From positions 354,082-418,081 of the forward strand of contig NZ_QBKB01000002.1 of assembly GCF_004137855.1 (NCBI RefSeq): 64,000 bases of DNA. Reading direction: 5' to 3'. The position numbers and the translations under genes were made by a program. A model generated the notes under the pieces. The model did not search any database, had not been told where the DNA came from, and was given only the letters and a program-made list of their open reading frames with translations. This DNA comes from Methanohalophilus profundi. GTDB taxonomy: Archaea > Halobacteriota > Methanosarcinia > Methanosarcinales > Methanosarcinaceae. Position 1 is the stretch's first letter. Every line of letters begins with the position of its first letter. Shown here one piece after another: positions 29,690-45,996 of the stretch.

Positions 29690-29790
29690 AATAAGGTTTA
29701 AGTAACTTAACTCTAATTATGGATTCCGAATAGCCTTATAAAGCTCATTCATCCAACCAACCGGCAAAGGCTAATTCTACACATCTTCCT

Positions 29791-29875
29791 GCGAGGGTTG
29801 CCCAGCCCGGTCAAAGGCGCCGGACTTAAGATCCGGTTTCGAAGGAATTCGAGGGTTCGAATCCCTCCCCTCGCA
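29791..29875 (+). tRNA. tRNA-Leu (anticodon TAA)
   Basis: The 85-nt cloverleaf has acceptor arms GCGAGGG and CCCTCGC with discriminator A at 29875. The anticodon stem CCGGA/TCCGG has loop CTTAAGA (anticodon TAA), there is a long variable arm as in class II tRNAs, and the T-arm is GAGGG-TTCGAAT-CCCTC. CCA is not encoded. A TATA-like TTATAAAG lies about 55 bp upstream at about 29734-29741. Confidence 0.95.
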
Positions 29876-30028
29876 CTTGTTTTTTTGGGTTATAGGTAGG
29901 GTAGAAAAATGCAACCCTTAAGATAAATACTGGAAGTAATTCCGTTTTTAAGAAAATAAATAATTTTATTAAAAGATAATTGCTTTTGATTTAGAAAAAT
30001 GGGAGAAAAAATAATTTTACTTCTCCAA

Positions 30029-30127
30029 TTACTTCTCTTCTCTTTTCAAGAACATCGCAACCGCAAAACCCAGCATTCCTATAATTAACATTGGATTGGC
30101 AGTTGGAACATCGAAGTTTGGTTTTGA
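30029..30127 (-). pseudogene. remnant of a VPxxxP-CTERM (archaeosortase-sorted) surface protein
   Basis: On the minus strand a 32-codon frame reads KPNFDVPTANPMLIIGMLGF, then AVAMFLKREEK and TAA. It has all three parts of an archaeosortase sorting signal: the VPxxxP motif, a single transmembrane helix and a basic tail. An in-frame stop lies just upstream and there is no start, so only the C-terminal signal is left. The rest of the 29876-30287 gap is AT-rich with no gene that I can support. Confidence 0.55.
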
Positions 30128-30287
30128 TTAAATTAGACTGCAGGTATAAAGTAGGTTAAAATGATAACTTTTTACTAATTTACTGTAATGTTAATAAATA
30201 ATGGTTATGTTAGGAATTGTATTATTCTAAACTTGTTTAAAATAAGAACAATATAATTTAAATTATATGTCTAGGCGTATAGCATCT

Positions 30288-30830
30288 TTATTCTATAAAT
30301 ACCATGGCGGCCACTACTGTTGTCCATAGACCATGCTTATCCACTTTTGCAGTCTGGCATGTATGGTCCGTATAGATATTATGGCCTTTTGCCTGGTAGA
30401 TATTTTTCCTTTTAAGCCAAGTCGAATCTACATCTAATTCAATATTTAGAGTTGTTGTCAGCATAGTAACAGCCATATATTCTGCATACATGCCTGCAGT
30501 GTTCTCGTCTTCTCCGAAAGAATAGTATTTGTAAATACGGCCGTAATTTTCTTCATCATCTAAGATAGCGCTACCTACAGATGCAGCAATCCATCTGTGA
30601 GGTTCATTTGTTTGATTTTTGGTGAGAGCACAAAATACAATTTCACCTGGGTTTAGATTGAATAAAATTTCGTTTTTTGAAACGGTTCTACATTTTGAAG
30701 GTATTATACTCGATACTTTTACTAGATTTAATTTTTCAATTCCCGCGTCTCTTAAAGCAAGTTCAAAAGAGGTTAGTTTATCTTTACTTATCCCGGTGCC
30801 TTTTGTAAAAAAAACTTTTGTTGGAATCAT
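30288..30830 (-). CDS. pdaD: pyruvoyl-dependent arginine decarboxylase homologue (PdaD family)
   Basis: PdaD decarboxylates arginine to agmatine with a pyruvoyl group generated by self-cleavage. The self-processing site is visible as VKVSSIIPSKC near residue 40 (cleavage between the two Ser in the family), and the C-terminal half has PHRWIAASVGSA and GLWTTVVAAMV. The length of 180 residues fits the family (about 165). It starts 18 bp after the stop of a pyrrolysine-free MtmB paralogue, so the two should be co-transcribed. Whether this copy is the housekeeping enzyme or a paralogue with another amino-acid substrate cannot be told from the window. Confidence 0.85.
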   Translation of the reverse strand: MIPTKVFFTKGTGISKDKLTSFELALRDAGIEKLNLVKVSSIIPSKCRTVSKNEILFNLNPGEIVFCALTKNQTNEPHRWIAASVGSAILDDEENYGRIYKYYSFGEDENTAGMYAEYMAVTMLTTTLNIELDVDSTWLKRKNIYQAKGHNIYTDHTCQTAKVDKHGLWTTVVAAMVFIE

Positions 30831-30848
30831 ATTGAAAATTAAAAAATA

Positions 30849-32225
30849 TTACTGTCCTGCAAAATTGTATACTTTGTCTAATATTTTGTGGTACATCTCA
30901 TTGTATTCGGGAATCGGCTTAATTTTTTCTACATCATAACATTCATTAAAATGTTTACCAAGCACTTGTTTGGTAAAATGTTTGTTATACTTCTTGTATA
31001 AATTATTACAAATACGGTTTGCATCATCAAAAGAGAGTGTTGTTGCGAGCTCAGCCATTTTGCTCATGAACAATGCATCCAATCCTCCTGCATGATCGAT
31101 CATTTGTAATGAATTTGGTACTGGTCCTGCCAGCATATCTGCCCCGCAGACAGTAGATGAAATTGTTTGAACTGCAGTTTCATAAAACATCATTTCAGTG
31201 CATGGTCCCGCAAAATTTGTAACATCCACTCCATGCAATAATTTGGAATTTCTGGTTAGTGCTAAGAATGCAATGGAGGAGGCCCAAATGGATTCCGCAG
31301 TTGAAGATGAGCCTGTTTTTCCATCGAGTGCAGCATGGAAATACATCATTGTGTCATTTATTGTTCTACTTTTTATAGCTTCGGCAACAATGATAATTGC
31401 CATTTGTTCGGGAGACGATATTGTGTTTCCGCCAAGCATTACAAATTGATCACTATCATAGGGGATACCAAATTTTTCATAATGAATAGTTTGTGTTATA
31501 GAATCAATATTAAAGGTCATGTCCGTAGCATTGTATATTTCATGAATTGTATTTTGACTAGTCAATTTGCAATTAGTAATAGAAAGAGATGCTCTTATGT
31601 CTCCTATTGATGGAGGTATATTATAGCACATGTTTGGTCTGTTTTCTAATTTTAAAGCTTCATTGAGCATATGGATTGATTTATAGGCTGTATTAAGCTC
31701 AAGTGGTGTGTGCAATGTACTTTTTTCAGATGTAATCAGTGATGCTGGTGTGAGGTTATCTATATCTCTAATTTTTGCATATGATTGATGGATTGGTATA
31801 AAATATTTTTCTGATGCAGGTGCAGCGCAAGGCCCTCCCCATATTGAGGGGAGACGTTCATCTAGTACTTTTCTGAAGTTTATACATATATTGTCAAATC
31901 CTTTGCCTATAGTTAATGAACGACCGATATTTTCCATATTATCTAGAATTTCATCTCTTTTTGGTTTATATATTCTTTTAGTTCCTGTTGCAAAAAAACC
32001 TGTAGTTTCAACTAGATCAAGAGCAGCTAAGTAAACACGATCTGCCATATTAAAATCCAAAGGCAACAAGTTATTGTTATCAAAAATAATGTTATACTTG
32101 TTAATTAGTATCATACTTGTTTCATGAACTAGCTCTTCATAATTTTTTTGTGATACTTTTTTCCCATTAAAAATCTGCTTCACAATTTCATTCATTTCGA
32201 TTTCGTTCATTTTTATCAATTCCAT
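30849..32225 (-). CDS. MtmB-family methyltransferase paralogue without pyrrolysine
   Basis: This protein resembles monomethylamine methyltransferase MtmB along its whole length: SIWGGPCAAPASEKYFIPIH, FAGPCTEMMFYETAVQTIS, and HFNECYDVEKIKPIPEY near the C terminus. From ATG 32225 it has 458 residues, the canonical MtmB length. MtmB enzymes carry pyrrolysine at position 202, encoded by TAG. Here the aligned segment RPNMCYNIPPS has Asn at 202 and the gene has no in-frame TAG. The frame is open to 32348, but that extension has no counterpart. ATG 32210 is an alternative start, and a TATA-like GTATATAC at 32241-32248 lies close upstream. It is AT-richer than its neighbours, diverges from mttB and leads into pdaD. 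It is probably a corrinoid methyltransferase for another substrate. Confidence 0.8.
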   Translation of the reverse strand: MELIKMNEIEMNEIVKQIFNGKKVSQKNYEELVHETSMILINKYNIIFDNNNLLPLDFNMADRVYLAALDLVETTGFFATGTKRIYKPKRDEILDNMENIGRSLTIGKGFDNICINFRKVLDERLPSIWGGPCAAPASEKYFIPIHQSYAKIRDIDNLTPASLITSEKSTLHTPLELNTAYKSIHMLNEALKLENRPNMCYNIPPSIGDIRASLSITNCKLTSQNTIHEIYNATDMTFNIDSITQTIHYEKFGIPYDSDQFVMLGGNTISSPEQMAIIIVAEAIKSRTINDTMMYFHAALDGKTGSSSTAESIWASSIAFLALTRNSKLLHGVDVTNFAGPCTEMMFYETAVQTISSTVCGADMLAGPVPNSLQMIDHAGGLDALFMSKMAELATTLSFDDANRICNNLYKKYNKHFTKQVLGKHFNECYDVEKIKPIPEYNEMYHKILDKVYNFAGQ

Positions 32226-32240
32226 TATTCTTTTCTTTTG

Positions 32241-32379
32241 GTATATACTTTGTTTCACTTTCCACATATTGATTTCTGGTAACGAATTGGAGAATGCATA
32301 AATTTTATATAACATAAATAATCGCATTGCGCAAACTTTAAGTAACATTAATATTATGTTTTATATAGAGGTATAAGTT
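32241..32379. promoter_or_regulatory. divergent promoter region between the MtmB paralogue and mttB
   Basis: The AT-rich gap has a TATA-like GTATATAC at 32241-32248 (read on the minus strand) for the MtmB paralogue. On the plus strand TTTTATATAG at 32359-32368 is followed by AGAGGT, which is the likely ribosome-binding site for mttB ATG 32380. The two genes could share regulators. Confidence 0.4.
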
Positions 32380-33870
32380 ATGATAAATTTTGATAAGAGT
32401 GGAAAGAATATACTGAATGGTATAAAATTGGAAATGTTTTCTCCTGATGAAATTGAAGACATCCATTATGCAACACTCGAAGTGTTTGCAGACGTTGGAA
32501 TTATGGTGACTGATCCGGAAGCGAGAAATATTTTCAAGGAAGGTGGTTGCGACGTTGACGACAATACACAAATGGTGAAAATACCCGAAACTGTAGTGAC
32601 TGAAGCTCTTCGAACTGTGCCTTCTCGATTCAAGCTTTATGGTCGTGAAAAGAAGAACACTCTTATTCAGGAAGTGGGTGGTAAAGTTCACTGGACAAAT
32701 TTCAGTACTGGCGTCAAGATGAGCGTTTACGATGAAGTAACGGGAAAATATGTCCCCCGGGATAGTACTGAACAAGATGTTGCAGATACTGCAAAAATTT
32801 GTGATTGGGCAGACGGCATTGATTATTATGGAATGGCAGTTTCAGCAATGGATTGGGCTGGTAAAGGTGCAACGGATCTTCATGAAACATTTGCTGCCTT
32901 TACAAACACCTCAAAACACGTTATGTTAGACCCTGTGGCTGAAAACTTCGAACGCTATGTGGACATGATGACAGCATACTATGGCGGGGATGAGGAAGAA
33001 GTGCGCAAAAAGCCGATTGGGTGTATGGCCATGTGTCCAACAAGTCCTCTTGAAATTGGGAATAATGCATGTCAAATGACAATTAAAAGTGCACGCATGG
33101 GGATACCTAATTCAATAATTAGCATGGCTATGGCGGGAGCATCTTCTCCTGTTTATCTTGCAGGTACTCTTGTCACTCATAATGCAGAGGTTCTTGCATC
33201 TGTTGTTCTTTCCCAGCTCGCGGAGCCCGGTGCTCCTGTGTGGTATGCCTGCTCAACAACGTCATTTGACCTTAAAACCGGAACTGCTCCTGTTGGTTCG
33301 CCAGAACTTGGCCAGATCAATGCCGCTGTTGCAAAACTTGGTCAGTATTACAACATTCCTACATTTGTTGCTGGAGCTTAGTCTGACTCAAAGGTTGCGG
33401 ATGCACAAGCAGGCCATGAAAAGACCCTCACAAACCTTCTGCCTGCTCTTGCTGGTGCAAACTCTATCTATGGTGCAGGTATGCTTGAGCTTGGGATGAC
33501 ATTTTCTATGGAACAACTTTTGATTGATAGTGAGATTATCAATATGACAAAGATGGCTATGAGGGGTATTCCTGTTTCAGAAGAAACTCTTGCTATAGAT
33601 GCCATCAAAAAAGTAGGTCCAGGAAAGAATTTCCTATCTCATAAGACGACACTGAATAACATTGACCTCCCCTCACACCCAATGCTTTTCGACAGGACTA
33701 TGTATGGCGATTGGGAACGTGCAGGTGAAAAGAACGCTCTAACTCGAGCACACGAAAAAGTCGAGTCTGTGATGAAGAGCCATGAAGTTCTCCCCATTGA
33801 TGCTGACATATTGAAAGACATGAAGGCTATTGTGGAAGAGGGCGATAAGGCATTCATAGCAAGCCGCTGA
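32380..33870 (+). CDS. mttB: trimethylamine methyltransferase MttB, read through an in-frame TAG (pyrrolysine)
   Basis: MttB transfers a methyl group from trimethylamine to its corrinoid protein. The frame from ATG 32380 meets TAG at 33379-33381, codon 334, and continues open to TGA 33868-33870. The flanking residues (TFVAGA before, [11 protein letters not shown] after) match the known MttB site, and Pyl334 is the established position in this family. The full product has 496 residues against about 495 in homologues, so the TAG is a pyrrolysine codon and not a mutation. It is first in the methylamine gene run, with an AGAGGT upstream of the start. Confidence 0.96.
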
Positions 33871-33878
33871 AAAGATAT

Positions 33879-33932
33879 ATCTTTTGTTGCTGATTTTACC
33901 TTTTTTTTGATTCTCTTTTTATCATTTTTTTC
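33879..33932 (+). terminator. T-rich transcript end after mttB
   Basis: Three T-runs (8, 5 and 7 bases) occur within about 45 bp after the mttB stop. Archaeal RNA polymerase terminates on such oligo-T stretches without a strong hairpin. The downstream mtbC has its own TATA-like TTATATATG stretch near 34009-34020, so mttB and mtbC are probably separate transcripts. Confidence 0.45.
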
Positions 33933-34148
33933 AAAAAGTTTACACAAAATAGTCTCACGAATGTTTTCTTTTTGCCTCAGTCTGTTTTTGTAATAGTTAT
34001 ATTTATATATGTATCTTTTTTGAACAGCAATGCTTATATATTAGTAATTTTGCTTAACCAAAATTATTAAATAATAGTAAATCAAATTACTATTTGAAGG
34101 AAAACTTGAATAATCGGTTTCCTTATAAAAAAAAAGGAGATACAAAAT

Positions 34149-34793
34149 ATGAAAGATGAACTGATACTTCAAAACATCAAGGAATCCTTGATTAATATTG
34201 AAGAGGAAAAGTGTATGAATTTAATGCAAGATGCTCTTGATGATGGTTTTCTACCTGTTGAGATTATTGAAGAAGGCCTGTCACCAGGAATGTTGAGTGT
34301 TGGAGAACAATTTGAAGATGGCGCTGTTTTTCTTCCTCAAGTAATGATGGTTGCAGCATTGATGGAAAAATGTGTGGCCTTCTTAAACGACAACATGCCT
34401 GAAAGTGAAGCATCTAAAATACATGGAATTGTTGTCATCGGAACTGTCGAAGGTGATGTGCATGACATTGGGAAGAATATCGTAAAAGTACTTCTTAATG
34501 TTAATGGATTTGAAGTTCATGATGTTGGGAGAGATGCTCTTCTCAGCAAGTTCATTGAAAAAGCAAAAGAAGTGGATGCTGATATCATAGCTTCTTCCGC
34601 ATTGATGACCGGAACCATGGAAGCAATGGGAGATCTGGAATCAGAGATCAAAGCAGCTGGAATCCACGATCGTGTTAAAACCATGGTTGGAGGGGCTCCT
34701 GTTACTCAGTACTGGGCCGATAAGATTGGTGCCGATGCTTATGCAGAAAATGCAGGTGAAGCAGTAAAGTTAGTTAGTGATATGGTGAAATGA
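34149..34793 (+). CDS. mtbC: dimethylamine corrinoid protein MtbC
   Basis: This 214-residue corrinoid protein has an N-terminal helical cap (LSPGMLSVGEQFEDGAVFLP) and a C-terminal Rossmann B12 domain with the cobalt-ligating DxHxxG motif in EGDVHDIGKNIV. SALMTGT and TMVGGAPVTQYWADKIGAD are also typical. It receives the methyl group from the methyltransferase and passes it to MtbA. I assign it to dimethylamine because mtbB begins 67 bp downstream, and the more MttC-like corrinoid gene is at 39.3 kb. GGAG precedes the start. Confidence 0.82.
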   Translation: MKDELILQNIKESLINIEEEKCMNLMQDALDDGFLPVEIIEEGLSPGMLSVGEQFEDGAVFLPQVMMVAALMEKCVAFLNDNMPESEASKIHGIVVIGTVEGDVHDIGKNIVKVLLNVNGFEVHDVGRDALLSKFIEKAKEVDADIIASSALMTGTMEAMGDLESEIKAAGIHDRVKTMVGGAPVTQYWADKIGADAYAENAGEAVKLVSDMVK

Positions 34794-34860
34794 TAGGTAT
34801 TAATGTTCATCTAAAAAAGTAAGTTAATTTATTAATATACTAAATATATTGGGCGATATT

Positions 34861-36249
34861 ATGGAATATGAACAAAGAATGGGCGATGGACGAAGAATAA
34901 TGATGGCCAAAGAAGACATCATTACGGATATTGAAAACGGGTCAAATGAAGCTGCTGAGAAAGGAAAAATTCCTGCCCTCACGGATGACGACATGGATCA
35001 TCTTTTGAATATTTTTTTAGACCCTTCAAGAATGGCCACAGTTGATGTGGGTGATGAGGTAGTAATGAGTACCGATGAAGGATATGCAGTTTTCAGTGGA
35101 AACTACAGTGAAATGGGTGGTGCAGGTATCCCAATGGATGCCACCAGTGCCAACATTGCTATGGAACGTGTCATGGGTGCAGATTGTGTGACTTATGCAT
35201 GGGTGGATTATAACTTTAAACCATCCAAAGCAGTGATCACCCAGCTTCAACAGGAAATAGAGTCCATTCTTCTGAATACCATCAGTCCCTGCTCTTATGG
35301 AGCCATGCCAAATCTTGGATCCTATTACAAACCGGATGGTCCATTTGACAATGTCGGTGATCTAATGGCAGAAGGCAAAATTATGGAGGCCTTGGAAGTC
35401 TATAAACAAGTAGCTGAAGATGCAACTGAAGATATGGTGTGGGTCACCGGCAAACTTGCAAAGATGGGATTGGACAATCTCAACATCGACACTGCTGGAG
35501 CGGCTGGAGATGGTGACTTCCTTGCAGCCCTTAAAGCAACGGAAATTTTGAAGAAAACAATTCCTAATTTTTCGGTCGAAGTAGGTATGGCAAACGAATT
35601 TGTATTGGGAATTGATGGCACAATGGAATATGATAGTATGCGTCTGGCAGGTATGTATCCTCATGACCAGGTAGTAGCATGTGAAAAGGCTGGAGTGGAT
35701 ATTTACGGACCGGTGTGTAATACAAACACTCGTAAATCCACACCATGGAATGTTGCACGAGCTATTGCCTTCACAAAAGAATGCAGTAACGTCGCAAATA
35801 TCCCTGTACACCCTAACATGGGGATGGGTGTAGGGGGTGTCCCGATGGTTGAAAATCCGACTCTCGATGCAGTGACAAAAGCATCAAAGGCTATGGTAGA
35901 GATTGCTAATGTGGATGGCATATAGGTGGGAGTTGGTGACGGAATAGGTGTAACTCTGGGACATCACATGGCTTCCGGGATGAATGGTATTCGTACTGCT
36001 GGAGATCTTGTTCTCAGGATGCAAATGACTGGGATGAGATTGGATGAAGCAAAAGAGTATGTTGCTAAAAAACTTGGTGTCAATGTTTCTGACCTTGCAG
36101 ATCCGTATCTTATGAAAGAAGTGAGGGGGGAATTGGATATTGGTACTGTACTCGGAGTACCGGGTCATGCCAAGGGCCTCAAAGCAAAAGCTAATATTGC
36201 AGAAGTTTTGGGAATTGAAATTCCTTCTGTAAACATGCTTGGAAATTGA
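34861..36249 (+). CDS. mtbB: dimethylamine methyltransferase MtbB, read through an in-frame TAG (pyrrolysine)
   Basis: MtbB demethylates dimethylamine to monomethylamine, methylating MtbC. The frame from ATG 34861 meets TAG at 35923-35925 (codon 355) and then runs to TGA 36247-36249. The site context KAMVEIANVDGI, then TAG, then VGVGDGIG equals the known MtbB pyrrolysine site (Pyl356 in characterised enzymes). The product has 462 residues. Other family features are NIDTAGAAGDGDF and GPVCNTNTRKSTPWN. An upstream ATG at 34849 is also in frame. It follows mtbC. Confidence 0.95.
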
Positions 36250-36271
36250 TCGGAATGTAAGGTTAAATTAT

Positions 36272-36323
36272 GTTTTGGTTTGTAAGTATTTACTTTTATA
36301 ATATGCATCTTGCAAACCAAAAC
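36272..36323 (+). terminator. strong hairpin between mtbB and the first permease
   Basis: GTTTTGGTTTG at 36272-36282 pairs perfectly with CAAACCAAAAC at 36313-36323 (11 bp), around an AT-rich 30-base loop. It lies 23 bp after the mtbB stop and 27 bp before the permease start, so it may end or process the mtbCB message and separate its level from that of the permease. Confidence 0.55.
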
Positions 36324-36350
36324 TATATGAATGTTTTGGAGGTCTAAAAT

Positions 36351-37730
36351 ATGGATAATGAGATAGTAAGCGATGTGAAGTCGCATCTAGAAAGAACAGT
36401 AACATGGAAAGTTGGCCTTTATCTGGCTATAGCTAGTATACTTGATTGGGTATATCTCAGTGGTCCAGCGATTGCTGCAGTTGGTAAGTGGGCACCACTC
36501 GCATGGCTGGCTGTAGTAGTATTACAAATAATAGCTCTTCTTTCAATACTCGAAGTGGCTGTGATGTATAAAGATTCAGCCGGTGGTATATCAACTTACG
36601 TAATTAAAGCTTATGAACACCGAAGTCCCCTAATAGGTCCTTTAGCTATGTGGGGTTATTTCATGGGATGGGGGCTTGCTATTGGCGCAGTTGCACTCTT
36701 TGCAGGATTTTTTATACAATATTTCATCCCTGATTTTAATATTGTAGTGGGTGCATTGTTAACAATGCTTGTTTGTCTTGTGGTCAATCTTCGTGGGATT
36801 GAAGCTAGTGGCCGTATGCAATCTCTTATAACACTGGTATTCGTAGCAACTATTATAACCATAATTGCTTCTGTTGTGCAACTACCTGTAATTCCATATT
36901 CAGGGGTCCCTGATATGTTATTACCAGAAAATAATCCATTTGTAGCAATTGCTGGTATCCTTTTCCTGCTTGCTTGGTCTGGATATGCAATAGAAGCGGT
37001 TTTGACCATAGTACCGGAATATCTCGACCCTATAGGTGATACCAAAAAAGCTACTATTGCATGTGGAATGGTATATGCTGTGATGACAACTTTGATATGT
37101 TTGGCACTTATTTTATACTTGCCATTGGAAGTGACACTCAATGATCCTTTTACGCCACTTCTCCCACTGGCTGAAATGGCTTTAGGATCTGCTTTTGCTT
37201 ATGGATTCGGAGTTATTCTAATAATAGGCCTAATACTCAATACTAACCTGTGTTTTGTAGCCACTTCAAGAGTGCTTTATGAAGCAGCAAATACAGGATA
37301 TCTACCCAGAATATTTGGTAAGTTGAATAAGAATAAAGCACCAGCTGCAGCTCTGGTATTCCTGTTTTTAGTGAATGCTATCCTAGTAATAGCTGTTGGA
37401 GAGGCGCCTTTATTCCTATTGGTTGCAGGAAACATTGGGTACTTTGTTGTGATAATTCTTTCAAATTTCACCCCTTATGTCATGAGACACGACTTCCCAG
37501 ACATTACACGTGAGTATCGTGTATCTGACTATTGGATTTATGCTGGTGTGGGTGTTGGAATTATTAACATAATCCTGTTGATAGTTGGTGCTTTGTCATA
37601 TGGATTGACAAACCTTGCTGTAGGATGTGCATTGTTATTAACAGTATATCCATTGTATTTCTATAGAACAAAAGTGGAAGATAAAAAGATGCAGGCCAGT
37701 GCGACAGATATCAAAGGAGATGAAAATTAA
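36351..37730 (+). CDS. mttP: methylamine permease, APC family (MttP-like)
   Basis: This 459-residue membrane protein of the amino acid-polyamine-organocation family has about 12 hydrophobic helices. The first helix region reads WKVGLYLAIASILDWVYLSG, and the conserved loop is DSAGGISTYVIKAYE. Its position between mtbB and mttC matches the methylamine permeases of Methanosarcina, which import tri-, di- or monomethylamine. Which amine this copy prefers is not visible; the neighbour mtbB suggests dimethylamine. The start has GGAGG 8 bases upstream. It ends at an intrinsic-type terminator. Confidence 0.85.
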   Translation: MDNEIVSDVKSHLERTVTWKVGLYLAIASILDWVYLSGPAIAAVGKWAPLAWLAVVVLQIIALLSILEVAVMYKDSAGGISTYVIKAYEHRSPLIGPLAMWGYFMGWGLAIGAVALFAGFFIQYFIPDFNIVVGALLTMLVCLVVNLRGIEASGRMQSLITLVFVATIITIIASVVQLPVIPYSGVPDMLLPENNPFVAIAGILFLLAWSGYAIEAVLTIVPEYLDPIGDTKKATIACGMVYAVMTTLICLALILYLPLEVTLNDPFTPLLPLAEMALGSAFAYGFGVILIIGLILNTNLCFVATSRVLYEAANTGYLPRIFGKLNKNKAPAAALVFLFLVNAILVIAVGEAPLFLLVAGNIGYFVVIILSNFTPYVMRHDFPDITREYRVSDYWIYAGVGVGIINIILLIVGALSYGLTNLAVGCALLLTVYPLYFYRTKVEDKKMQASATDIKGDEN

Positions 37731-37753
37731 GGAGATTAGTCTCCTTTTTTTTT
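37731..37753 (+). terminator. hairpin plus T-run terminator
   Basis: GGAGA and TCTCC pair around TTAG at 37731-37744, followed by nine T. It starts right after the permease stop codon and so separates the first permease from the second. Confidence 0.8.
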
Positions 37754-37795
37754 GTTTGAAACACGGAGGATTGATCATTTTTGAGAGGTTAAATT

Positions 37796-39151
37796 ATGGT
37801 TGAATACAGAAAATTAGAACGAGCAATCACATGGAAAACCGGGGTATTCGTGGCTTTAACCTGCGTTCTAGATTGGTTCTGGCTAACAGGGACTGCTATT
37901 GATATGTCAGGTAAATGGGCAATTGCTGCTTGGGCTACAGCAGTACTTCTTCAAGGAGTGGCATGTATTGGCTATCTTGAAATGGCGACCATGTTCAGGG
38001 ATTCATCCGGGGGTCTTCCCACATATGTCCATGAAGCATTCAAAAAATATAGTCCTCTGCCCGGGACAATATCTTCATGGGGATATGTCGTCGGTTGGGG
38101 TGCAGCTCCGATCGCAGTTGTTTTATTCGCAGGTTTTTTTGTCAGAGAAACGTTGCTTCCTTCTATGAACCCAACGGTTTTTGCGGTAATTATACTGTTA
38201 TCTGTTTGTCTTCTGAATTACTTTGGAGTCAAGGTTTGGAGTAACGCAAGCACTTTCATTGTTATTACTGCTTTGATTTGTCTTTCTATTTGCGTTGGCA
38301 ATTGGTTATTCCCCATTCCGGAATCCGTGAATCCGGTTGGGTTTGGGTACGTGGGCGAGAATCCAGGGGTTCCAACTTTTATAGCTACAGTCTTTATTTT
38401 AGCATGGAGTGCATATTCATCTGAAGTTGTAATAACCTTAACGGCTGAATACAAAAATCCGGTGGAAGATACTAAAAAAGCATTATTTTGGACGATCTTG
38501 CTTTTCCTTTTCGGGACGACGTTCGTAGCTGCCACATATCTGAAAGCACTACCTCTTGATACAATTCTTAACCATCCTTATACTCCCCTTTTACCTCTCG
38601 CTGAACATCTGATAGGTTATGCCGGAAAGGTAATCGTCACAATTGCAATGGTCGTTGGTCTTTTCCTGAGCACGAATGCATGTTTAATTGCAGCATCTCG
38701 TGTTCTTTTCCAGATGGGAAGATCAGGAACGACGCTCAAACAATTTGGGCACTTGAATAGGTACGGATCCCCTGCTGGTGCAATATTTGGTTTAGCATTG
38801 CTCAATATAGCTATGATCACCATTTTTGGCGACCAACCAATAGCAATCCTACGTGCCGGAGATATCGGATATTTTGGAACTATTATCCTTGCTAATATAT
38901 CCTTCATAATGTTAAGACGCGACAGGCCGAATGCAGAAAGGGGATTCCGTGCACCTAATTTCTATGTGTATATATGTGCATTGCTTGCGATAACCAACCT
39001 TGTGATTGTAACGGTTGGCTCGTGGGAGTGGGGATTACTCCGTTCTTTGATTGGTGCTTCACTGTTATTGACATGCCTGCCTTTCTATTTCTACAGGACG
39101 AAAGTACAGGATCGAAGAGAAATCAAAGGGGATAACATCAATGAAACTTAA
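37796..39151 (+). CDS. mttP: second methylamine permease, APC family (MttP-like)
   Basis: This 451-residue paralogue of the preceding permease has the same architecture of about 12 helices. Matching landmarks are WKTGVFVALTCVLDWFWLTG, DSSGGLPTYVHEAFK and the C-terminal FYFYRTKVQD. It is followed 111 bp later by the trimethylamine corrinoid gene mttC, so trimethylamine is the more likely cargo. The two permeases have clearly diverged, which suggests different substrate preference rather than a recent duplication. Confidence 0.85.
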   Translation: MVEYRKLERAITWKTGVFVALTCVLDWFWLTGTAIDMSGKWAIAAWATAVLLQGVACIGYLEMATMFRDSSGGLPTYVHEAFKKYSPLPGTISSWGYVVGWGAAPIAVVLFAGFFVRETLLPSMNPTVFAVIILLSVCLLNYFGVKVWSNASTFIVITALICLSICVGNWLFPIPESVNPVGFGYVGENPGVPTFIATVFILAWSAYSSEVVITLTAEYKNPVEDTKKALFWTILLFLFGTTFVAATYLKALPLDTILNHPYTPLLPLAEHLIGYAGKVIVTIAMVVGLFLSTNACLIAASRVLFQMGRSGTTLKQFGHLNRYGSPAGAIFGLALLNIAMITIFGDQPIAILRAGDIGYFGTIILANISFIMLRRDRPNAERGFRAPNFYVYICALLAITNLVIVTVGSWEWGLLRSLIGASLLLTCLPFYFYRTKVQDRREIKGDNINET

Positions 39152-39262
39152 TTTATGTAAAGTGTCAAATGATGAATTTTTGATAGGAAATATATCATCC
39201 TTTACTAATGCTTTTGCTACTGGATGGTTATAAGACATTAATTGTTAGGAGGAAGATTAAGA

Positions 39263-39913
39263 ATGGCTACACAGGAAGAGTTACAAGAGAAAGGAAAAGC
39301 TGCAGTCATGGACTTTGATGACGAAGCAGTTGTAGAAGTTGCAGAAGAATGTATCTCTGAAGGACTTGACCCGGTTGCACTCATTCAGGACGGTTTCACA
39401 ATCGGAATGAACGAGATTGGGGACCAGTTCGAGCAGGGAACACTTTTCCTTCCACACGTTATTGCTGCATCCGAAGCGATGAGCGCAGGCGTTGAGGTTC
39501 TCACTCCCGAACTTGAGAAACTCAGCTCAAAAATGGAAGACAAAGGTACAATCGCAATCGGTACCATTGAAGGTGACATTCACACCATCGGTAAGGATAT
39601 CGTTGCAACCATGCTCAAGATCGCTGGCTTCAATGTCATCGATCTCGGAAGAGATGTACCAATCGCTGACTACGTCACCGCTGTAAAAGAACAGAAACCA
39701 GCTATCGTTGGTTCCTCTGCCCTGATGACCACCACAATGGTCCTTCAGACCCAGATAGAAGAACAGCTCAAGGAAGCTGGTGTACGTGACAGCGTCAAGA
39801 CAATGGTCGGTGGAGCACCTGTTACCCAGGACTGGGCTGACAAAATTGGTGCAGACATCTATGGAGAGAACGCATCCGACGTAGTCGTCAAATGCAAGGC
39901 AGCAATAGAATAA
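39263..39913 (+). CDS. mttC: trimethylamine corrinoid protein MttC
   Basis: MttC accepts the methyl group from trimethylamine via MttB. The 216-residue protein has the cap domain (FTIGMNEIGDQFEQGTLFLP) and the B12-binding motif DxHxxG in EGDIHTIGKDIV, then SALMTTTM and TMVGGAPVTQDWADKIGAD. The N terminus MATQEELQEKGKAAVMDFDDE resembles characterised MttC proteins more than MtbC. The ATG at 39263 has GGAGG upstream; 39242 is an in-frame TTG-type alternative that is less likely. It lies 5.4 kb from mttB with the permeases and mtbCB between. Confidence 0.85.
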   Translation: MATQEELQEKGKAAVMDFDDEAVVEVAEECISEGLDPVALIQDGFTIGMNEIGDQFEQGTLFLPHVIAASEAMSAGVEVLTPELEKLSSKMEDKGTIAIGTIEGDIHTIGKDIVATMLKIAGFNVIDLGRDVPIADYVTAVKEQKPAIVGSSALMTTTMVLQTQIEEQLKEAGVRDSVKTMVGGAPVTQDWADKIGADIYGENASDVVVKCKAAIE

Positions 39914-39972
39914 GAACGAAGAATGAAGATGCGTCTATTGGATGTATCTTTCATTTCCTTGCACTCCCATTA

Positions 39973-40055
39973 ATAACAATCCCCCTCATTACGGTATCTT
40001 ACAACCTCCCATATCACCAACACATCAAAAAATACAGAATGAGGGAGATTGTTAT
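39973..40055. repeat. long inverted repeat after mttC
   Basis: The arm at 39973-39990 (ATAACAATCCCCCTCATT) is the reverse complement of 40038-40055 with 17 of 18 matches and a 47-base spacer. It starts 59 bp after the mttC stop and ends 80 bp before the next gene. As RNA it would be a very stable hairpin, possibly terminating or protecting the mttC message. It could also be a small non-autonomous mobile element. Confidence 0.6.
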
Positions 40056-40135
40056 AAAAAAGTAACAAAAACAATTACTTTTTTTATTTAATTTTGCTAA
40101 ATGATTTTATTAAGCAATTTTTAGAGCACAGCGGG

Positions 40136-40594
40136 ATGAATATGAAAACAAAAAGTGTACTCATTGTTGAAGATGAAATAATAATTGCAATGGGCCTTAA
40201 ATTGAAATTAGAGAATCAAGGTTACATCGTACGTGGAATTGTGTCAGATGGCCAAACTGCAATCAAAACTGCTTCATGTACAGGACCTGATATAATCTTG
40301 ATGGATATTATTCTGAAAGGAGATATGGATGGTATTGAAGTTGCTGGCAAAATAAAGCAAAATAGTTCAATTCCTATCATATTCATTACAGGTATTTCAG
40401 ATAAAGAGACTTTAAGACGAGCTCATAAAATAAAACCTGTTGGCTTGTTAACAAAACCTTACTCTGACAGACATTTATTTAAAAAAATAGAACTTGCTTT
40501 GTCCAAAGACGGCTCTTTTTCAAACGATGCTCAATATACAATTTTCAACACTTTTGGCAAACCAAATAGCCAGATGAATATGTTCGAGGTTTAA
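40136..40594 (+). CDS. single-domain response regulator (REC)
   Basis: This receiver domain has VEDEII at the N terminus, the phospho-Asp in IILMDIILKGDMDG and the Lys in GLLTKPYSD. After residue 125 there are about 25 residues and no output domain, so it would act as a phosphorelay intermediate or work through a protein partner. ATG 40136 (MNMKTKSVLIV) is preferred over 40094. It stands alone downstream of the methylamine genes, and a link to them is only positional. Confidence 0.82.
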   Translation: MNMKTKSVLIVEDEIIIAMGLKLKLENQGYIVRGIVSDGQTAIKTASCTGPDIILMDIILKGDMDGIEVAGKIKQNSSIPIIFITGISDKETLRRAHKIKPVGLLTKPYSDRHLFKKIELALSKDGSFSNDAQYTIFNTFGKPNSQMNMFEV

Positions 40595-40605
40595 ATGGAA
40601 CAAAA

Positions 40606-40648
40606 AAACAGTTATGATGTCTTTCAATCTTTGCATCATATCTGTTTT
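40606..40648 (+). terminator. hairpin with T-run after the response regulator
   Basis: AAACAG-T-TATGATG at 40606-40619 pairs with CATCATA-T-CTGTTT at 40634-40647, with one T-T mismatch, and the 3' arm ends in a run of five T. It begins 12 bp after the stop codon and also precedes the IS5-family element. Confidence 0.6.
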
Positions 40649-40698
40649 TGCAATTGTTATCTTAGTTTGTACACATATGTTGTATTTACCATTGAACC

Positions 40699-41567
40699 TA
40701 TTTCAAAACTCCGGTTGAAACTTTTTCCAGCACATTAGAAAACATGCTATATCCAGTAATCCTTTGAAAACAACATTTAGTCTTTCATATCTGCTTGCTA
40801 TTTTCCTGAATCCCATTTTCAACCATGCAAAGAATCGTTCTATTGTCCCCCTTTTCCTATATGACTCATATTCAAGTCTTGTAGGTCTTCCTCTTTTAGG
40901 ATATTTCCGATTCCTGATATTAATAGGAATGTTACTTTTTATCGCTCTGCGCCTCAGATATTTTCTGATGGTAATCTCATCATAAGCAGAATCTGCAAGT
41001 ACTTCTAACGGTCTGGTTCTTGGTCTCCTTTCAGTTTTGATCTTTATATTTTCCATGACCTCAATAAAATGGTTTCTGTCATGTTCTTTCCCCGAAGTTA
41101 TATGGATCGCTAAAGGAAAGCCTTCACAACTTACACAAACATGTATCTTTATTCCATTCCTTTTTTTGTGGCCGTTGTATTCGGAATTCTCTCCCCTTTT
41201 TTTGTTTCGATGAAACTGCTATCAACAGATACAACATCCATAGAGAACTTATCTTTCTGGTAAGCAGAATCCCGAAGGGATTCCATTATCTCTTCCCATA
41301 CTCCTTCTTCTGACCATCTTTTAAGCCTTCTCCAGGCTGTGGCTGGAGAACCATAGCTAGCTGGCATATCTCCCCATCTGCAACCAGTTATCAGAACGAA
41401 GAGAATACCATTGATGACCTTACGGTCATCAGCTCTCTTTCTTCCAGTTATTGGTTGTGGTGGTAAATGCAGTCGAATAAACTTCCATTGCTCATCAGAG
41501 AGTTCACTGAATTCCATTCATATCCCCATAATAATATCATAGGAAATAGTATTTATAGTTTTGATAT
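40699..41567 (-). mobile_element. IS5-family insertion sequence
   Basis: The element of about 0.87 kb carries a two-frame transposase on the minus strand. TCAAAACT at 40703-40710 (overlapping the transposase stop) and AGTTTTGA at 41557-41564 are the inner part of its terminal inverted repeats. The outermost bases diverge, so the ends are approximate, and I cannot define a target duplication with certainty. Confidence 0.65.
40703..41517 (-). CDS. IS5-family transposase, two frames joined by a probable -1 frameshift
   Basis: Frame A (41517-41149) gives the N-terminal part: LSDEQWKFIRLHLPPQPITG, then CRWGDMPASYGSPATAWRRL and the first catalytic Asp in VVSVDSSFIET. Frame B, ending at 40703, gives ADSAYDEITIRKYLRRR and the Glu region RKRGTIERFFAWLKMGFRKI. 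The frames are offset by -1 and overlap at a run of seven A (ACA AAA AAA GGA in frame A), a classical slippery site used by related IS5-family elements to make the full transposase. The full-length product would be about 270 residues. A pseudogene is possible, but the A7 site argues for programmed frameshifting. Confidence 0.75.
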
Positions 41568-41926
41568 GAATTCATTATTTAATTTATTGTGATGGGTAAG
41601 TCCAAAAAACAATTTTGGCATGGTAAACCGATTTGGGTGGTAAGTGGGCGACACATGTCTTTTCTATCTGCATACAGATACCTTACCCATCACTATATTA
41701 TAATAGATGTTTTATACGGGATATAATGAAAAGAACGAATGGTTCTGAATTTTATTATCCCTTTTCAGTCTTAACAATCAGCAGAACTTATTTTTTCCGA
41801 GTTTACTTATCCTGCTTGCAAGTGTCGAGTTCATGTCTGACCGTTGCCAGCTTCATCATTAAAGGCTGCGTTTTTACAATCTACCTATAACTTCCGCACT
41901 GAACTTCAGATTATAATGCTCAAAAA
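41568..41926. other. intergenic stretch between the IS5 element and the peroxiredoxin gene
   Basis: It contains the folded element at 41589-41693 and otherwise no gene that I can support. An 85-codon open frame on the plus strand at 41633-41890 has no ribosome-binding site and an unnatural composition. Confidence 0.5.
41589..41693 (+). ncRNA. candidate structured RNA or small repeat, copy 1
   Basis: The 105-base element is closed by a perfect 12-bp stem: GTGATGGGTAAG at 41589-41600 and CTTACCCATCAC at 41682-41693. Inside are the hairpins CCAAAA/TTTTGG, GACA/TGTC and TATCTG/CAGATA. A second element of nearly the same size and closing-stem sequence is at 51083-51185. It is either a multi-branched small RNA or a MITE-like repeat whose ends are inverted; the strand is not known. 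Confidence 0.45.
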
Positions 41927-42673
41927 TCAGCTTTTATCTTCCTTAAGGCAAATGTACCATTCGGAACATTTCAATTCCTTATCTTCCATGCGCTTCTTTG
42001 CATCTTCATAGGAAAGAGGAGTTCTTACTATAACATCATCGCCAGGATTCCAGTTAACAGGAGTATCTACATTCTGTGAATCTGTTTTCTGGATCGCCTG
42101 CAGGATACGTTTTATTTCATCAAGGTTTCTGCCATTGGAAAGTGGATAAAAGGCTATATAACGGATGCGTGACTGCGGGTCGATTATGAATATTCCCCTC
42201 ACAGGTTGGGTATTTATGATTTCGTTCTCATCAGTTGCCTTATCTGCCTGAATATACTGGATATCGCGCATATATCTTTTGTTCTCAGAAGGCTGGAGCA
42301 TCCCATATTTTTTAACTATTGACAACCCCTTATCTTCAACTATAGGAAATTCCACATCTACGCCCGAGATGCCGTTGAACTCCACCTTTTCCTTTATAGA
42401 GCACAACCAGGAAATGTGTGATTGGACACTGTCAACTGACAGGCCAAGAAGTTCTGTATTTAGCTGCCTGAATTCTGCATGCATCTTTGCAAACACCATG
42501 AACTCGGTGGTACATACAGGTGTAAAGTCTCCAGGATGACTGAAAAAAATTACCCATTTACCTTCATAATCTTTTGGAAAATTCACTTCCCCATGTGTGG
42601 TACGGGCCCAGAAAGAAGGAGCAATTTCCCCCATCATTGGAATTCTGATAGTCATATATTCATTTTGTTCCAC
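41927..42673 (-). CDS. peroxiredoxin (AhpC/Prx6-like)
   Basis: This thiol peroxidase reduces peroxides. The peroxidatic Cys lies in HPGDFTPVCTTEF near residue 53. The long C-terminal extension reads NWNPGDDVIVRTPLSYEDA, then KKRMEDKELKCSEWYICLKE, with two further Cys that could act as resolving residues. At about 248 residues it is of the archaeal decameric Prx6-like type. It is a single-gene unit, and its upstream region contains the 317-bp gap shared with a divergent membrane reductase. Confidence 0.92.
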   Translation of the reverse strand: MEQNEYMTIRIPMMGEIAPSFWARTTHGEVNFPKDYEGKWVIFFSHPGDFTPVCTTEFMVFAKMHAEFRQLNTELLGLSVDSVQSHISWLCSIKEKVEFNGISGVDVEFPIVEDKGLSIVKKYGMLQPSENKRYMRDIQYIQADKATDENEIINTQPVRGIFIIDPQSRIRYIAFYPLSNGRNLDEIKRILQAIQKTDSQNVDTPVNWNPGDDVIVRTPLSYEDAKKRMEDKELKCSEWYICLKEDKS

Positions 42674-42990
42674 AATAATACCCCATTTGTCTTATCATTC
42701 TTATATTCAGTTTGTAGCTGTATATTTAGGTTTTTACAATTGTTACTTCGTCCATTTATAACAAGGGTTGTATTTTTTAACGCAAAGTACCCTTAGAGGA
42801 TCTTACTTTCTATCATTGCAGAATTGTAAGCAAACAATAAATCAGGTTTTTTGCAAAAACCTACATGAACATCAGCACCATCAGTATTTCATGTCTCTCA
42901 GTTATTCCACCTCAGGTAAAACATACTCATAATTGAGTATAACATTAACTTTATACAAAATAAGGTGTAAAACTATATGAGGAATCTTTA
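42674..42990. promoter_or_regulatory. divergent regulatory region with a palindrome
   Basis: This gap between the peroxiredoxin and the ferric reductase-like gene holds ATACTCA-TAAT-TGAGTAT (42923-42940), a perfect 7-bp inverted repeat placed just upstream of a TATA-like ACTTTATAC near 42948. That geometry suits an operator for the gene at 42991. I see no gene in the rest. Confidence 0.45.
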
Positions 42991-43575
42991 ATGGAAAAAC
43001 GCTGGCATTTAATATTCCTGGTAACCTTCATTGCGGCAATAATTGCATACATTTTGTTACAGGCAATTGATACACCTCTCGAAATGATTGACAGAGCAGC
43101 AGGGCTTTTTGCCTATTATTTCATCTTTCTGGCAATCCTGTCCTCTGAATACATGAAACAGATGAAAAAGGTGTTCGGGCAGGGTTTTATCAGGATTCAC
43201 CATTATCTTGCACGTCTTGGGATTTCACTTATGCTGCTTCATCCCATCGCATTTGCATTTGAAAAACAAAGCATATCGGTCTTTTTTCCTGTTTTCTATC
43301 CGTTCATAGAGTTTCTGGAACTTGCGGGCAGGCCGGCTTTCTATCTAATTATAATAGCAGTGGCAGCAGGGGTTTACAGGAAACATTTTATCCGTAAATG
43401 GAAAAAAATCCACTACCTGAACTATCCGGCCTTTTTGCTAATCTTTATTCATTCATGGTTAATTGGAACTGACCTGAATTCCGCTATAATGCAGTTACTC
43501 TGGGTTTGCATGGCCCTGGTAATCACAGCAATATTTGTACATAAGCACATCATACCTCTTAGAAAGAGTATGTGA
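42991..43575 (+). CDS. ferric reductase-like transmembrane protein
   Basis: This 194-residue protein with about six hydrophobic helices has heme-ligand style His pairs: RIHHYLARLGISLMLLHPIA in helix 3 and KIHYLNYPAFLLIFIHSWL in helix 5. That pattern matches the ferric reductase-like transmembrane domain (also YedZ-like), which carries electrons across the membrane through bis-His hemes. No flavin domain is attached. Proximity to a peroxiredoxin suggests a redox-stress role, which is inference. Confidence 0.75.
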   Translation: MEKRWHLIFLVTFIAAIIAYILLQAIDTPLEMIDRAAGLFAYYFIFLAILSSEYMKQMKKVFGQGFIRIHHYLARLGISLMLLHPIAFAFEKQSISVFFPVFYPFIEFLELAGRPAFYLIIIAVAAGVYRKHFIRKWKKIHYLNYPAFLLIFIHSWLIGTDLNSAIMQLLWVCMALVITAIFVHKHIIPLRKSM

Positions 43576-44279
43576 ATTGTAACATAGTACAAACAATAAC
43601 ATATTCAAATTAAAAGGCTTAACAGCCTTTGCATTTTGTTTTGTCTAATGATAAATGTTAAAACCAGATTTCTCCCTTAACTCCCTGATCGCACTTAAAA
43701 GAAGGGATTTATAGTCGATAAATCTCCGTTACTTTATTCACCTCACACCATGCATATATCGAGGACAGGATTATCCCGGGAATTGCAGCGGATTGTGCAT
43801 ACAAGATCTTCATATTTGTCCGGTGAAATTATTTCTTGAAAATAGCAAATCAGCGTATATTATCCGGATATTGCCTTAATACAAAGCATGAAATTTTAAA
43901 GCCGGTTTAACATTTCGAAACAAAGAGTATATATGTAATACTCAACTACATCAGTATTAATCAGAACTGCTTAATAATGGGGTGGTATGAGCGGGCTGGG
44001 GAGTGGGGGTACTAAAAAAGGTAATTACCCCCTCATCAATTAAGAATGGGTTTTCGCTGTATATACATGTTTTACCCGGATTTCTAACCTTAATAATGAT
44101 TAAAGGCATCTAGCTAAAGCATTGTACATAAATACATACAAAGATAGCATAAAACCAGCAATAATATTGCATACATATTTAAACTAATTTATAATGAGCT
44201 GAACATTAAATTATTATTTTGAATAAACATAACGTCATTATTCATGATCGCATTTCTGAAATATTAAAGGAACATAGAA
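43576..44279. other. 704-bp non-coding stretch
   Basis: No credible gene lies here. Visible items are a small hairpin AAAGGC-TTAACA-GCCTTT near 43614-43632 after the reductase, and a G-rich block at 43998-44032 (GGGGGTACT and TTACCCCC), which resembles a block at 51603-51635. An AT-rich promoter zone for the next gene ends the stretch. It may carry an unrecognised small RNA. Confidence 0.4.
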
Positions 44280-44690
44280 ATGTCTGAAGAAAACAAGCGC
44301 AAGACAGCATTCATAATGGCTATAATAGTAGGGTTTCTTGATATCCTTGTACTTTACCTAGGGACGATCAGGCCTGCCCATATTGGCTGGGCGGTAGCCA
44401 GTACAGGAATAATAACTTTCCTGGGAACACTGATGTTGATCAACCACCTTTCCAAATCCACAGACTTCGATAAAGGAGAAGTCAGAAAAGCAATGACAGG
44501 ATCTTTCATTGTGGTCTATTTTTCACTTGTATCACTGCTTACATTAACAGATATTGGTATCTCGGATACAGAGTTAGCCAAAACCATTATCTCTCATTTC
44601 ACCTACCTTGTAGGAATTGTTGTTGTATTCTACTTTGGGTCCCGGGCAGTTGAAAACTATTTGAACGCCCCTCAGAAACCGGGAAAATAA
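44280..44690 (+). CDS. four-helix membrane protein of unknown function
   Basis: The 136-residue product has a charged N terminus (MSEENKRK) and four predicted helices, at about residues 10-28, 35-55, 72-92 and 105-124, with a cytoplasmic C-terminal tail PQKPGK. AAAGGAACA precedes the ATG. I cannot assign a family. It is a single gene, convergent with the downstream methyltransferase. Confidence 0.7.
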   Translation: MSEENKRKTAFIMAIIVGFLDILVLYLGTIRPAHIGWAVASTGIITFLGTLMLINHLSKSTDFDKGEVRKAMTGSFIVVYFSLVSLLTLTDIGISDTELAKTIISHFTYLVGIVVVFYFGSRAVENYLNAPQKPGK

Positions 44691-44764
44691 GGGCCATTTA
44701 AGACATGTAAATAAAAGAGGAAAAGTACCGTCCCTTCCTCTACACTTATGCTAAAAATAGACAT

Positions 44765-45230
44765 TTAGTAATATTCACTTTTGGAGGGAATTATCCTGTG
44801 GACCCGTTGTTGATACTCCCTGTATTCCTCACCAAACTGTGCCACCAGCCTGGTTTCCCAGTGCAGTGACCCCAAGTAAAGGTATATGCTCGCCAGCTGG
44901 GCACCAATCTTGAACCTGTGAGGAACATCCCGCAAAGCCCTCGGTGCAACCAGAGTGGCAGCCAATTGTACCCCTACCATAATCCACCTCCAGGGAGAAG
45001 GTACGATGTACAAAAAGGGACCCGGGTTTGTGTAGAGCAGGTAGACAAGCGGCAAAATCGTAATAACTGCAATAAGGCTGTATGCCGGCATATACAGCAT
45101 TTCTGCCCGGGAACCCAGAACTCTCATGAGTCGGCGTTTGAATGGCAGGCTGGCCAAAAAAACTGTGAATGGCTGCAAATGCCACAAGACAAAATATAAG
45201 GATAATAGTAGATGAAACCAATTCCAGCAC
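44765..45230 (-). pseudogene. isoprenylcysteine carboxyl methyltransferase-like membrane protein, one-base frameshift
   Basis: The N terminus (MLELVSSTIILIFCLVAF, then AAIHSF) lies in one frame and the rest (LASLPFKRRLMRVLGSRAEM and four further helices) in another. The C-terminal motif FGEEYREYQQRVHRIIP is typical of the ICMT/PEMT-like membrane methyltransferases. The shift is at a run of seven A on the plus strand, 45156-45162; six restore a single frame of about 155 residues. The substrate is unknown. It is probably intact if the run is a sequencing error. Confidence 0.65.
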
Positions 45231-45654
45231 TCTCCTTTTTGTTGAATAAAACTTATTTATTATTTTTTATCTAACAGTAACCTGTAGTATCTTTGTATAA
45301 ACCAACCATCTAAATGTCACGAGAAATATTGTGGTTGTGTTCTGAATGCAATGACTACATGAAACCGCTACTATTTATTTCTGTATTTACTTCTACATGG
45401 CAAAAATATATTAATTTAGCCTTAGTGCATAACAAATCCATTTATCAGGAAAAAATACCACATTGAATATCAGATATTATATACCATACACTCAAAGTTA
45501 TCTGATATTTTGATTTAATCGTTTGGATTGTAAGCCAAAACTTGCAGAGAAAACTATCTAAAAAATAGGACGTACTAATACAATCAAATTAAAGGAAAAG
45601 AAAATAATTTATTCACCAGTAAAATGGTGAATGATCAAATAGCCAAGACAGCAG
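45231..45654. other. 424-bp AT-rich intergenic stretch with two hairpins
   Basis: AATATCAGATA at 45466-45476 pairs perfectly with TATCTGATATT at 45499-45509 (11 bp, 22-base loop). ATTCACC/GGTGAAT near 45612-45633 forms a hairpin just downstream of the minus-strand gene ending at 45655 and may be its transcript end. I see no gene. Confidence 0.4.
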
Positions 45655-45996
45655 TTATTTATCGCCTTTCCTCAGGCTTTTCATTTTTTCAAGTTCCCCC
45701 TCAAGTTCCCGAATCTTCATTTCATCGATAGAATCCGCATAATTAGTAAGATCCTTATCGGCTGTCTGAAGCGTGTTGTGCAGCCTTTCCACTACATTCT
45801 TCTCCAGATCCAACCTCTGTTTCCTGGTCTCGCTAACAAGGTCCTCGACAAGTACCTTACCTTCTTCCTTGCTGATGGCACCTTCCTTGACCCTTGTATT
45901 TACAAATTCCCTTATTCGCTCTTCGGACATAGCTGCCAATCCTGCACCAATCAATGCAGTTGCGCCTAAAAGACCCATCTTCTTTATCTTTTCCAT
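45655..45996 (-). CDS. phasin-like coiled-coil protein
   Basis: From ATG 45996 (MEKIKKMGLLGATALIGAGL) this 113-residue protein has a short hydrophobic N-terminal helix, then SEERIREFVNTRVKEGAISK and a long amphipathic helix ending ELEGELEKMKSLRKGDK. This resembles small phasin-superfamily or regulatory coiled-coil proteins with a KEGxxSKEEG loop. The function is unknown. The open frame extends to 46065, but GGGGTATT before 45996 supports the later start. Confidence 0.7.
   Translation of the reverse strand: MEKIKKMGLLGATALIGAGLAAMSEERIREFVNTRVKEGAISKEEGKVLVEDLVSETRKQRLDLEKNVVERLHNTLQTADKDLTNYADSIDEMKIRELEGELEKMKSLRKGDK

Follow-up and report, generated by a model that had tools for sequence, protein, structure and literature searches.

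The window analysed here, a 64,000-nucleotide stretch of the Methanohalophilus profundi genome, contains a gene, mtmB', that is genuine and intact and belongs to a clade of MtmB homologues free of pyrrolysine (Pyl). We propose that MtmB' is probably a Pyl-free, corrinoid-dependent N-methyltransferase whose substrate is most likely a quaternary amine resembling choline or tetramethylammonium. This reading rests on homology, the missing Pyl codon, the clade, the gene neighbourhood and the position of the gene in an island. In the part of the report by Kashyap et al. 2026 that we draw on (PMC13044021), the Pyl-free MtmB homologue MtqB methylates cob(I)alamin, with activities of 37 nmol/min/mg for tetramethylammonium and 42 nmol/min/mg for choline; it is weak on MMA (11 nmol/min/mg), inactive on TMA and glycine betaine, and is called the first Pyl-free MtmB with demonstrated function. 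An MtmB tree of 1,061 sequences in the same part includes further Pyl-free members of unknown function. The initial annotation, which had spoken of a little-explored branch, is superseded on this point: Pyl-free MtmB as a general kind is already published, and what is new here is clade A, to which mtmB' belongs, its pocket residues and the island. The features concerned are listed in window coordinates.

29791..29876, (+): tRNA-Leu, anticodon TAA; synteny with five relatives stops 22-61 bases beyond the 3' end
30288..30830, (-): pyruvoyl-dependent arginine decarboxylase, second copy; 18 bp downstream of mtmB', same strand
30849..32225, (-): mtmB', Pyl-free MtmB homologue of clade A, 458 aa; Asn202, Glu229, Asp259, Asp334
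32380..33870, (+): MttB homologue, Pyl-containing, TAG at codon 334; divergent from mtmB'
34149..34793, (+): corrinoid protein; groups with the mtbB-adjacent ones of the clade-A clusters in G008 (C9), G112 and G033
34849..36249, (+): diverged Pyl-containing MtbB homologue, TAG at codon 359
36351..37730, (+): APC-family permease 1
37796..39151, (+): APC-family permease 2
39242..39913, (+): corrinoid protein, second of the island; 95% identical to the one after the genome's other mttB

MtmB' is an intact MtmB homologue with Asn in place of Pyl202

The frame at 30849-32225(-) is intact, with no stop across 458 codons. It extends upstream to an ATG at 32348, giving a 499-aa form; we took the shorter start since 458 aa is also the length of the MtmB crystal sequences and the 499-aa form nearly touches the divergent gene that begins at 32380. 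The protein matches positions 3-446 of 450 in the Pfam MtmB profile (PF05369; 3.1e-87, 293.7 bits against a curated cut-off of 25), its sole family match, with none to PF06253 (MttB family). Residues 21-449 align with the crystal sequences 1tv2 and 1l2q (5.6e-51 and 7.1e-51, ~177 bits). Codon 202 is AAT (Asn, 31620-31622) and falls on the Pyl/TAG column in the phmmer alignment as well as in one of 109 rows, and TAG occurs nowhere in the frame. The gene is therefore what had been read from its letters, a full-length homologue of MtmB rather than of another family, with Asn at the Pyl202 position and no in-frame TAG.

We take the PDB entries 1l2q and 1tv2 to be MtmB1 of Methanosarcina barkeri. 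MtmB1 and MtmB' have the same length and share Glu229 and the AGPCTEM stretch, but differ by Pyl202 to Asn, Glu259 to Asp and Gln333 to Asp, the last residue being Asp334 in the numbering of MtmB'. Of the MtmB-typical trio at 229, 259 and 333, MtmB' hence has Glu229, with Asp instead of Glu and Gln in the other two columns. An AlphaFold model built from 8 sequences was set aside for its poor scores (mean pLDDT 43.7, pTM 0.45).

The closest relative that we found is at most 44% identical to MtmB'. Decay of the gene nevertheless appears unlikely, since the frame is whole despite this divergence and the protein keeps 35 of 47 family-wide conserved residues (27-38 in the ten other clade-A rows) and 61 of the 73 residues that are invariant across those ten rows.

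The missing TAG is specific to mtmB', since the host assembly (1.83 Mb, four contigs) encodes PylS (370.3 bits, cut-off 178) and has two other mtmB loci that carry TAG, one of them full-length. TAG-bearing mttB and mtbB genes are also present, and mtmB' is thus a Pyl-free paralogue in a Pyl-using organism. At L002 (G000:C2:441852-442670), a TAG-bearing mtmB, only profile positions 178-450 are matched, the first part being missing or in another frame; at L163 (G000:C2:637688-638989), the second usual mtbB, positions 1-434 are matched and 441-462 are matched separately.

Three Pyl-free clades differ in their pocket residues

We searched 111 genomes of Methanosarcinaceae for homologues (E up to 1e-20) and obtained matches in 93, while a scan of named genomes with the window protein returned six loci in Methanosarcinales or Methanosarcinaceae, four of them in Methanolobus. 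Of the 109 aligned rows, 53 carry TAG at the column, three Pyl-free clades account for 54 and two are distant outliers; 16 matches with fewer than 330 aligned residues were excluded from the tree. In the careful tree of 45 of these rows, clades A, B and C are each supported at 100/100 (bootstrap/SH-aLRT). Across the whole alignment, clade A has 11 rows including the window protein, clade B 36 and clade C seven; two pairs of clade-B rows are at least 99.5% identical, so clade B contains fewer genes than rows. Identity to the window protein is 24-27% for the clade-C proteins among the matches listed, and 24 and 26% for two Pyl-MtmB proteins of Methanolobus.

Membership of a distinct Pyl-free clade agrees with the earlier view that mtmB' is no recently mutated descendant of a TAG copy. 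Position 202 is Val in four, Thr in three, Phe in two, Ile in one and Asn in one of the clade-A rows; in clade B it is Met (28), Val (3), Phe (3), Leu (1) or Ile (1), and in clade C Thr (3), Val, Gln, Ile or Leu (one each). Within this set, then, only the window gene has Asn202. On the question raised initially, whether Asn is conserved in a distinct clade, the clade is confirmed but the residue is found in 1/11 rows and is ruled out as a clade-A signature.

Two further clade-A sequences deserve mention. L065:3-725(-) (G019:C28), 241 aa and cut by a contig end, has eight best matches that are all clade A; it probably represents a twelfth gene of clade A, from another genus, and is kept outside all clade-A counts. 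The clade-A gene of G062:C23 (L126:6587-7951(+)) has an in-frame TGA near codon 99, reflecting either a broken gene or an assembly error.

Residues 229, 259 and 333 (numbering set by Pyl202) presumably surround Pyl in the MtmB structure. Glu229, Glu259 and Gln333 occur together in 51/51 Methanosarcinaceae Pyl rows. Clade A keeps Glu229 throughout (11/11), with Ser (4), Asp (3), Thr (3) or Ala (1) at 259 and Val (7), Asp (3) or Thr (1) at 333, and none of its 11 rows has Glu259 or Gln333. The corresponding residues are Glu229 (34/36), Gly259 (33/36) and Tyr333 (35/36) in clade B, and in clade C Leu (6) or Thr (1) at 229, Cys259 (7/7), and Tyr (6) or His (1) at 333. Asp occupies both 259 and 333 in three rows only, those of the window, G008:C9 and G112; this trio is absent as a clade from the best tree, and such a grouping is compatible with the data (p-AU 0.238).

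The gene lies in an island at tRNA-Leu

The island, of ~11 kb, abuts the 3' end of tRNA-Leu and carries diverged second copies of mttB, mtbB and the arginine decarboxylase gene, whose product is 63% identical to the genome's other copy. We compared the site with five of the seven other genomes of the genus (G001, G003, G004, G006 and G007). Their DNA matches the left flank at 93.0-95.4% up to 29898-29937, and the match resumes on the right at 40694 (G004) or 41574-41910 (G001, G003, G006, G007). None of seven island proteins was found at the same site in these relatives (tblastn, 1e-10). Copies of the ~29870-30135 stretch (77-80%) occur elsewhere in the G006 stretches examined, so the gene-bearing part of the island begins past ~30135.

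Of the eight genus genomes, only that of the window has two matches each for mttB and for the arginine decarboxylase; in the other seven the decarboxylase is matched once. The diverged mtbB is absent from the full-length copies of the five other genus genomes that have such copies; G002 and G004 have partial mtbB copies only, which stand outside the MtbB tree. We saw no direct repeats of at least 20 bases within 29700-46000 that could mark attachment, and within the window the tRNA-Leu end recurs nowhere over more than 15 bases. Gain by transfer is the simplest reading of the island, and its second corrinoid gene is, by its sequence, a recent copy.

At the right edge, in 40703-41517(-) and 40136-40594(+), two short ORFs look by eye like the halves of an IS transposase, and an ORF looks response-regulator-like. 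The arginine decarboxylase gene as a conserved partner of mtmB' is unsupported: in the three relatives' loci in which the following gene was identified on the same strand, it encodes lysyl-tRNA synthetase (G008:C9), asparagine synthase (G112) or a YcaO protein (G065).

Most clade-A genes accompany Pyl-containing MttB or MtbB homologues

The surroundings of mtmB', a tRNA-linked island with diverged Pyl-MttB and Pyl-MtbB that the initial annotation of the gene leaves out, carry much information on function. A Pyl-mttB or Pyl-mtbB lies nearby in eight of the 11 clade-A loci (window, L040, L041, L042, L043, L122, L123, L126). L124, L125 and L034/L127 have neither on the stretch examined, and the contig ends near the gene in L125 and L127. 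The divergent layout, with mtmB' facing away from mttB - mtxC - (second mttB - mtxC) - mtbB - permease, recurs in G008:C9 and G112, the two loci that share Asp259 and Asp333 with the window.

The window MttB shares 63.1% identity with the other MttB of the genome, and the window MtbB 50-51% with the two other MtbB. Both pass the NCBIfam cut-offs, for TMA methyltransferase (683 vs 525 bits) and DMA methyltransferase (518 vs 369 bits), respectively; the genome's other MttB and MtbB copies tested score 702 and 877 bits. The MtbB proteins of the window, L122, L040 and L041 form one clade (support 100), and the first island corrinoid protein groups with those of the same three other loci (support 95), so the clade-A gene, the diverged MtbB gene and the corrinoid gene appear to travel as a set. 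MttB rows linked to clade A fall outside the 12-member clade of the genus's usual copies, and the MtbB proteins of L042, L043, L123 and L126 make up another group, of weak support (85), that lies closer to the usual copies.

In the corrinoid protein tree clade A has no clade of its own, and in the window the next gene upstream of mtmB' is the divergent mttB, the nearest corrinoid gene lying beyond it. In contrast, clade-C corrinoid proteins are a clade of their own (support 99), and a corrinoid gene adjoins the clade-C methyltransferase gene in L061, L062, L128, L063, L064 and L124. The part of the MtqB report that we draw on describes one Pyl-free mtmB in strain Q3c, downstream of a corrinoid gene annotated mtbC, and gives neighbouring locus tags for MtqC and MtqB (PMC13044021). 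As a corrinoid gene lies beside the methyltransferase gene in clade C, as it does for mtqB, clade C is probably the MtqB clade, on the evidence of gene order and not of sequence; the window gene falls outside clade C (100/100). MtqB of Methanococcoides methylutens Q3c (ACT9XH_RS04775) is likewise a full-length Pyl-free MtmB homologue of a Methanosarcinaceae methylotroph, but its gene follows its corrinoid gene, whereas mtmB' has no private corrinoid gene and, unlike mtqB, lies beside diverged Pyl-mttB and Pyl-mtbB.

BCCT transporter genes adjoin several Pyl-free mtmB genes

BCCT (betaine/choline/carnitine) transporters gave 41 matches in 27 of the 111 genomes. We tallied at least 69 Pyl-free mtmB loci (11 A, 51 B, at least 7 C), assigning genes outside the tree to clade B by identity (~31-34%) and omitting the partial clade-B L039. 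A BCCT gene lies 320-550 bp from seven of them, where a rough calculation with random placement within 2 kb would give ~0.08. Six of the seven neighbour clade-B genes, all divergent at 454-550 bp (G003, G006, G007, G074, G083, G089; three of these genomes belong to the window's genus), and the seventh neighbours a clade-A gene (G008:C115; convergent, 320 bp, BCCT 450 bits). The five BCCT-adjacent clade-B genes present in the tree share one 7-row subclade, so the independent linkage events are few; the other two genomes of that subclade have no BCCT neighbour. Clade-B mtmB and the BCCT gene are likely a quaternary-amine pair of their own. The window island has two APC permeases and no BCCT gene, the genome's one BCCT match lying elsewhere. 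The BCCT link thus supports quaternary amines for Pyl-free MtmBs generally more than for the window gene.

Predicted function of MtmB'

Because a quaternary nitrogen carries a positive charge of its own and lacks a lone pair, a covalent Pyl adduct is neither possible nor needed. We hypothesize that losing Pyl would free space for the cationic head of the substrate, which would fill the position of the Pyl-amine adduct and be held by Glu229 together with acidic residues at columns 259 and 333; in clade A, Glu229, plus the two Asp in three members, could hold the cation. Cob(I)alamin on a corrinoid protein would accept one methyl group, an MtbA-type enzyme would then transfer it to coenzyme M, and the tertiary and secondary amines left over would become substrates of the neighbouring Pyl-MttB and Pyl-MtbB. 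The quaternary substrate, the corrinoid partner and the serial demethylation with the neighbours are what we infer.

We favour a quaternary amine because of the MtmB homology, the intact frame, Glu229 and AGPCTEM, the BCCT link and the Pyl-mttB and Pyl-mtbB neighbours, and because the characterised Pyl-free MtmB uses tetramethylammonium and choline and not TMA, according to the same part of its report (PMC13044021). That part also names glycine betaine, carnitine, proline betaine and related demethylases in the Pyl-free MttB family, in which the same principle of no Pyl and quaternary amines applies in another family (PF06253) than that of MtmB' (PF05369). The mechanism fits MtqB; the substrates of MtqB need not carry over to clade A, since columns 229, 259 and 333 differ and clade A has no private corrinoid gene. 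Against a quaternary substrate count the APC rather than BCCT genes in the island, MtqB's activity on MMA and the TGA-interrupted gene of G062. Another methylated substrate, as the initial annotation had suggested, is likely.

As a possible but speculative extension, the island could be a full stripping line for one N-trimethyl compound, R-N(CH3)3+, with choline the simplest guess: MtmB' would act first, on the quaternary amine, after which the diverged Pyl-MttB' would demethylate the tertiary amine and the diverged Pyl-MtbB' the secondary one, each removing a single methyl. Methanococcoides strains are stated to convert choline to ethanolamine via demethylated intermediates (PMC7374477). In the parts of the open-licence literature covered (including PMC9723798, PMC5748143, PMC7374477 and PMC6498239), we found no named enzyme for DMEA or MMEA and no second Pyl-free MtmB function. 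If such a line operated, it would supply candidate dimethylethanolamine and monomethylethanolamine demethylases of choline-using methanogens, and Pyl would be kept or dropped stepwise within one pathway according to the nitrogen lone pair.

The preferred reading also has a narrower form, in which MtmB' is simply a tetramethylammonium/choline methyltransferase equivalent to MtqB and its substrate nothing new. The shared family, the absence of Pyl and the occurrence in Methanosarcinaceae agree with this, as do the standing of MtqB as the first such enzyme of demonstrated function in the source cited above and an arrangement in G122 (L124), where a clade-A gene lies divergent beside a clade-C gene and its corrinoid gene. 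We regard it as unlikely, however: clades A and C are separate at 100/100, the clade-C proteins among the matches listed are 24-27% identical to that of the window, all three pocket columns differ (Glu vs Leu/Thr, Ser/Asp/Thr/Ala vs Cys, Val/Asp/Thr vs Tyr/His), a corrinoid clade accompanies C and not A, and the equation of clade C with MtqB is itself inferred.

Rather improbable is a last-step role, with MttB' and MtbB' removing two methyls and MtmB' the last, from a monomethylated amine and without Pyl. The Pyl-mttB or Pyl-mtbB near most clade-A genes would suit this, as would the weak Pyl-independent MMA activity of MtqB reported in the part of the paper noted above (PMC13044021), but the genome retains a full-length TAG-bearing mtmB, and of the Glu229/Glu259/Gln333 trio, present in all 51 Methanosarcinaceae Pyl rows, neither Glu259 nor Gln333 occurs in any clade-A row. 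That MtmB' is non-catalytic or decaying, carried along by a mobile island, is very improbable: its end branch is the longest in clade A (0.98 and 0.86 in two trees), its amino-acid composition is unlike that of the alignment, its GC is 0.338 vs 0.406 for the whole window, its site is variable and the G062 gene is interrupted, yet the frame is whole at a divergence of at least 56%, most clade-A invariant residues are present and codon adaptation (0.746) lies within the 0.727-0.768 of six nearby reference genes.

Pyl-free MtmBs thus split by pocket residues and neighbourhoods into three clades, probably one with tested function, and the tie of clade A to diverged Pyl enzymes points to specific candidates for steps of choline-type methanogenesis that lack an enzyme. 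The preferred quaternary-amine reading also bears on the purpose of pyrrolysine, as the neighbours keep Pyl and the enzyme predicted to face a quaternary nitrogen is without it.

The clade-A clusters of G112 and G008 each contain a pair of closely related MttB genes, of which one carries TAG and the other TGG (Trp) at the Pyl334 codon (L122:4917-6575(-) and L040:6144-7703(-), respectively), a pattern present in both genera. Through a one-base change of TAG into TGG, a Pyl-MttB may have become a Pyl-free enzyme that was then retained.
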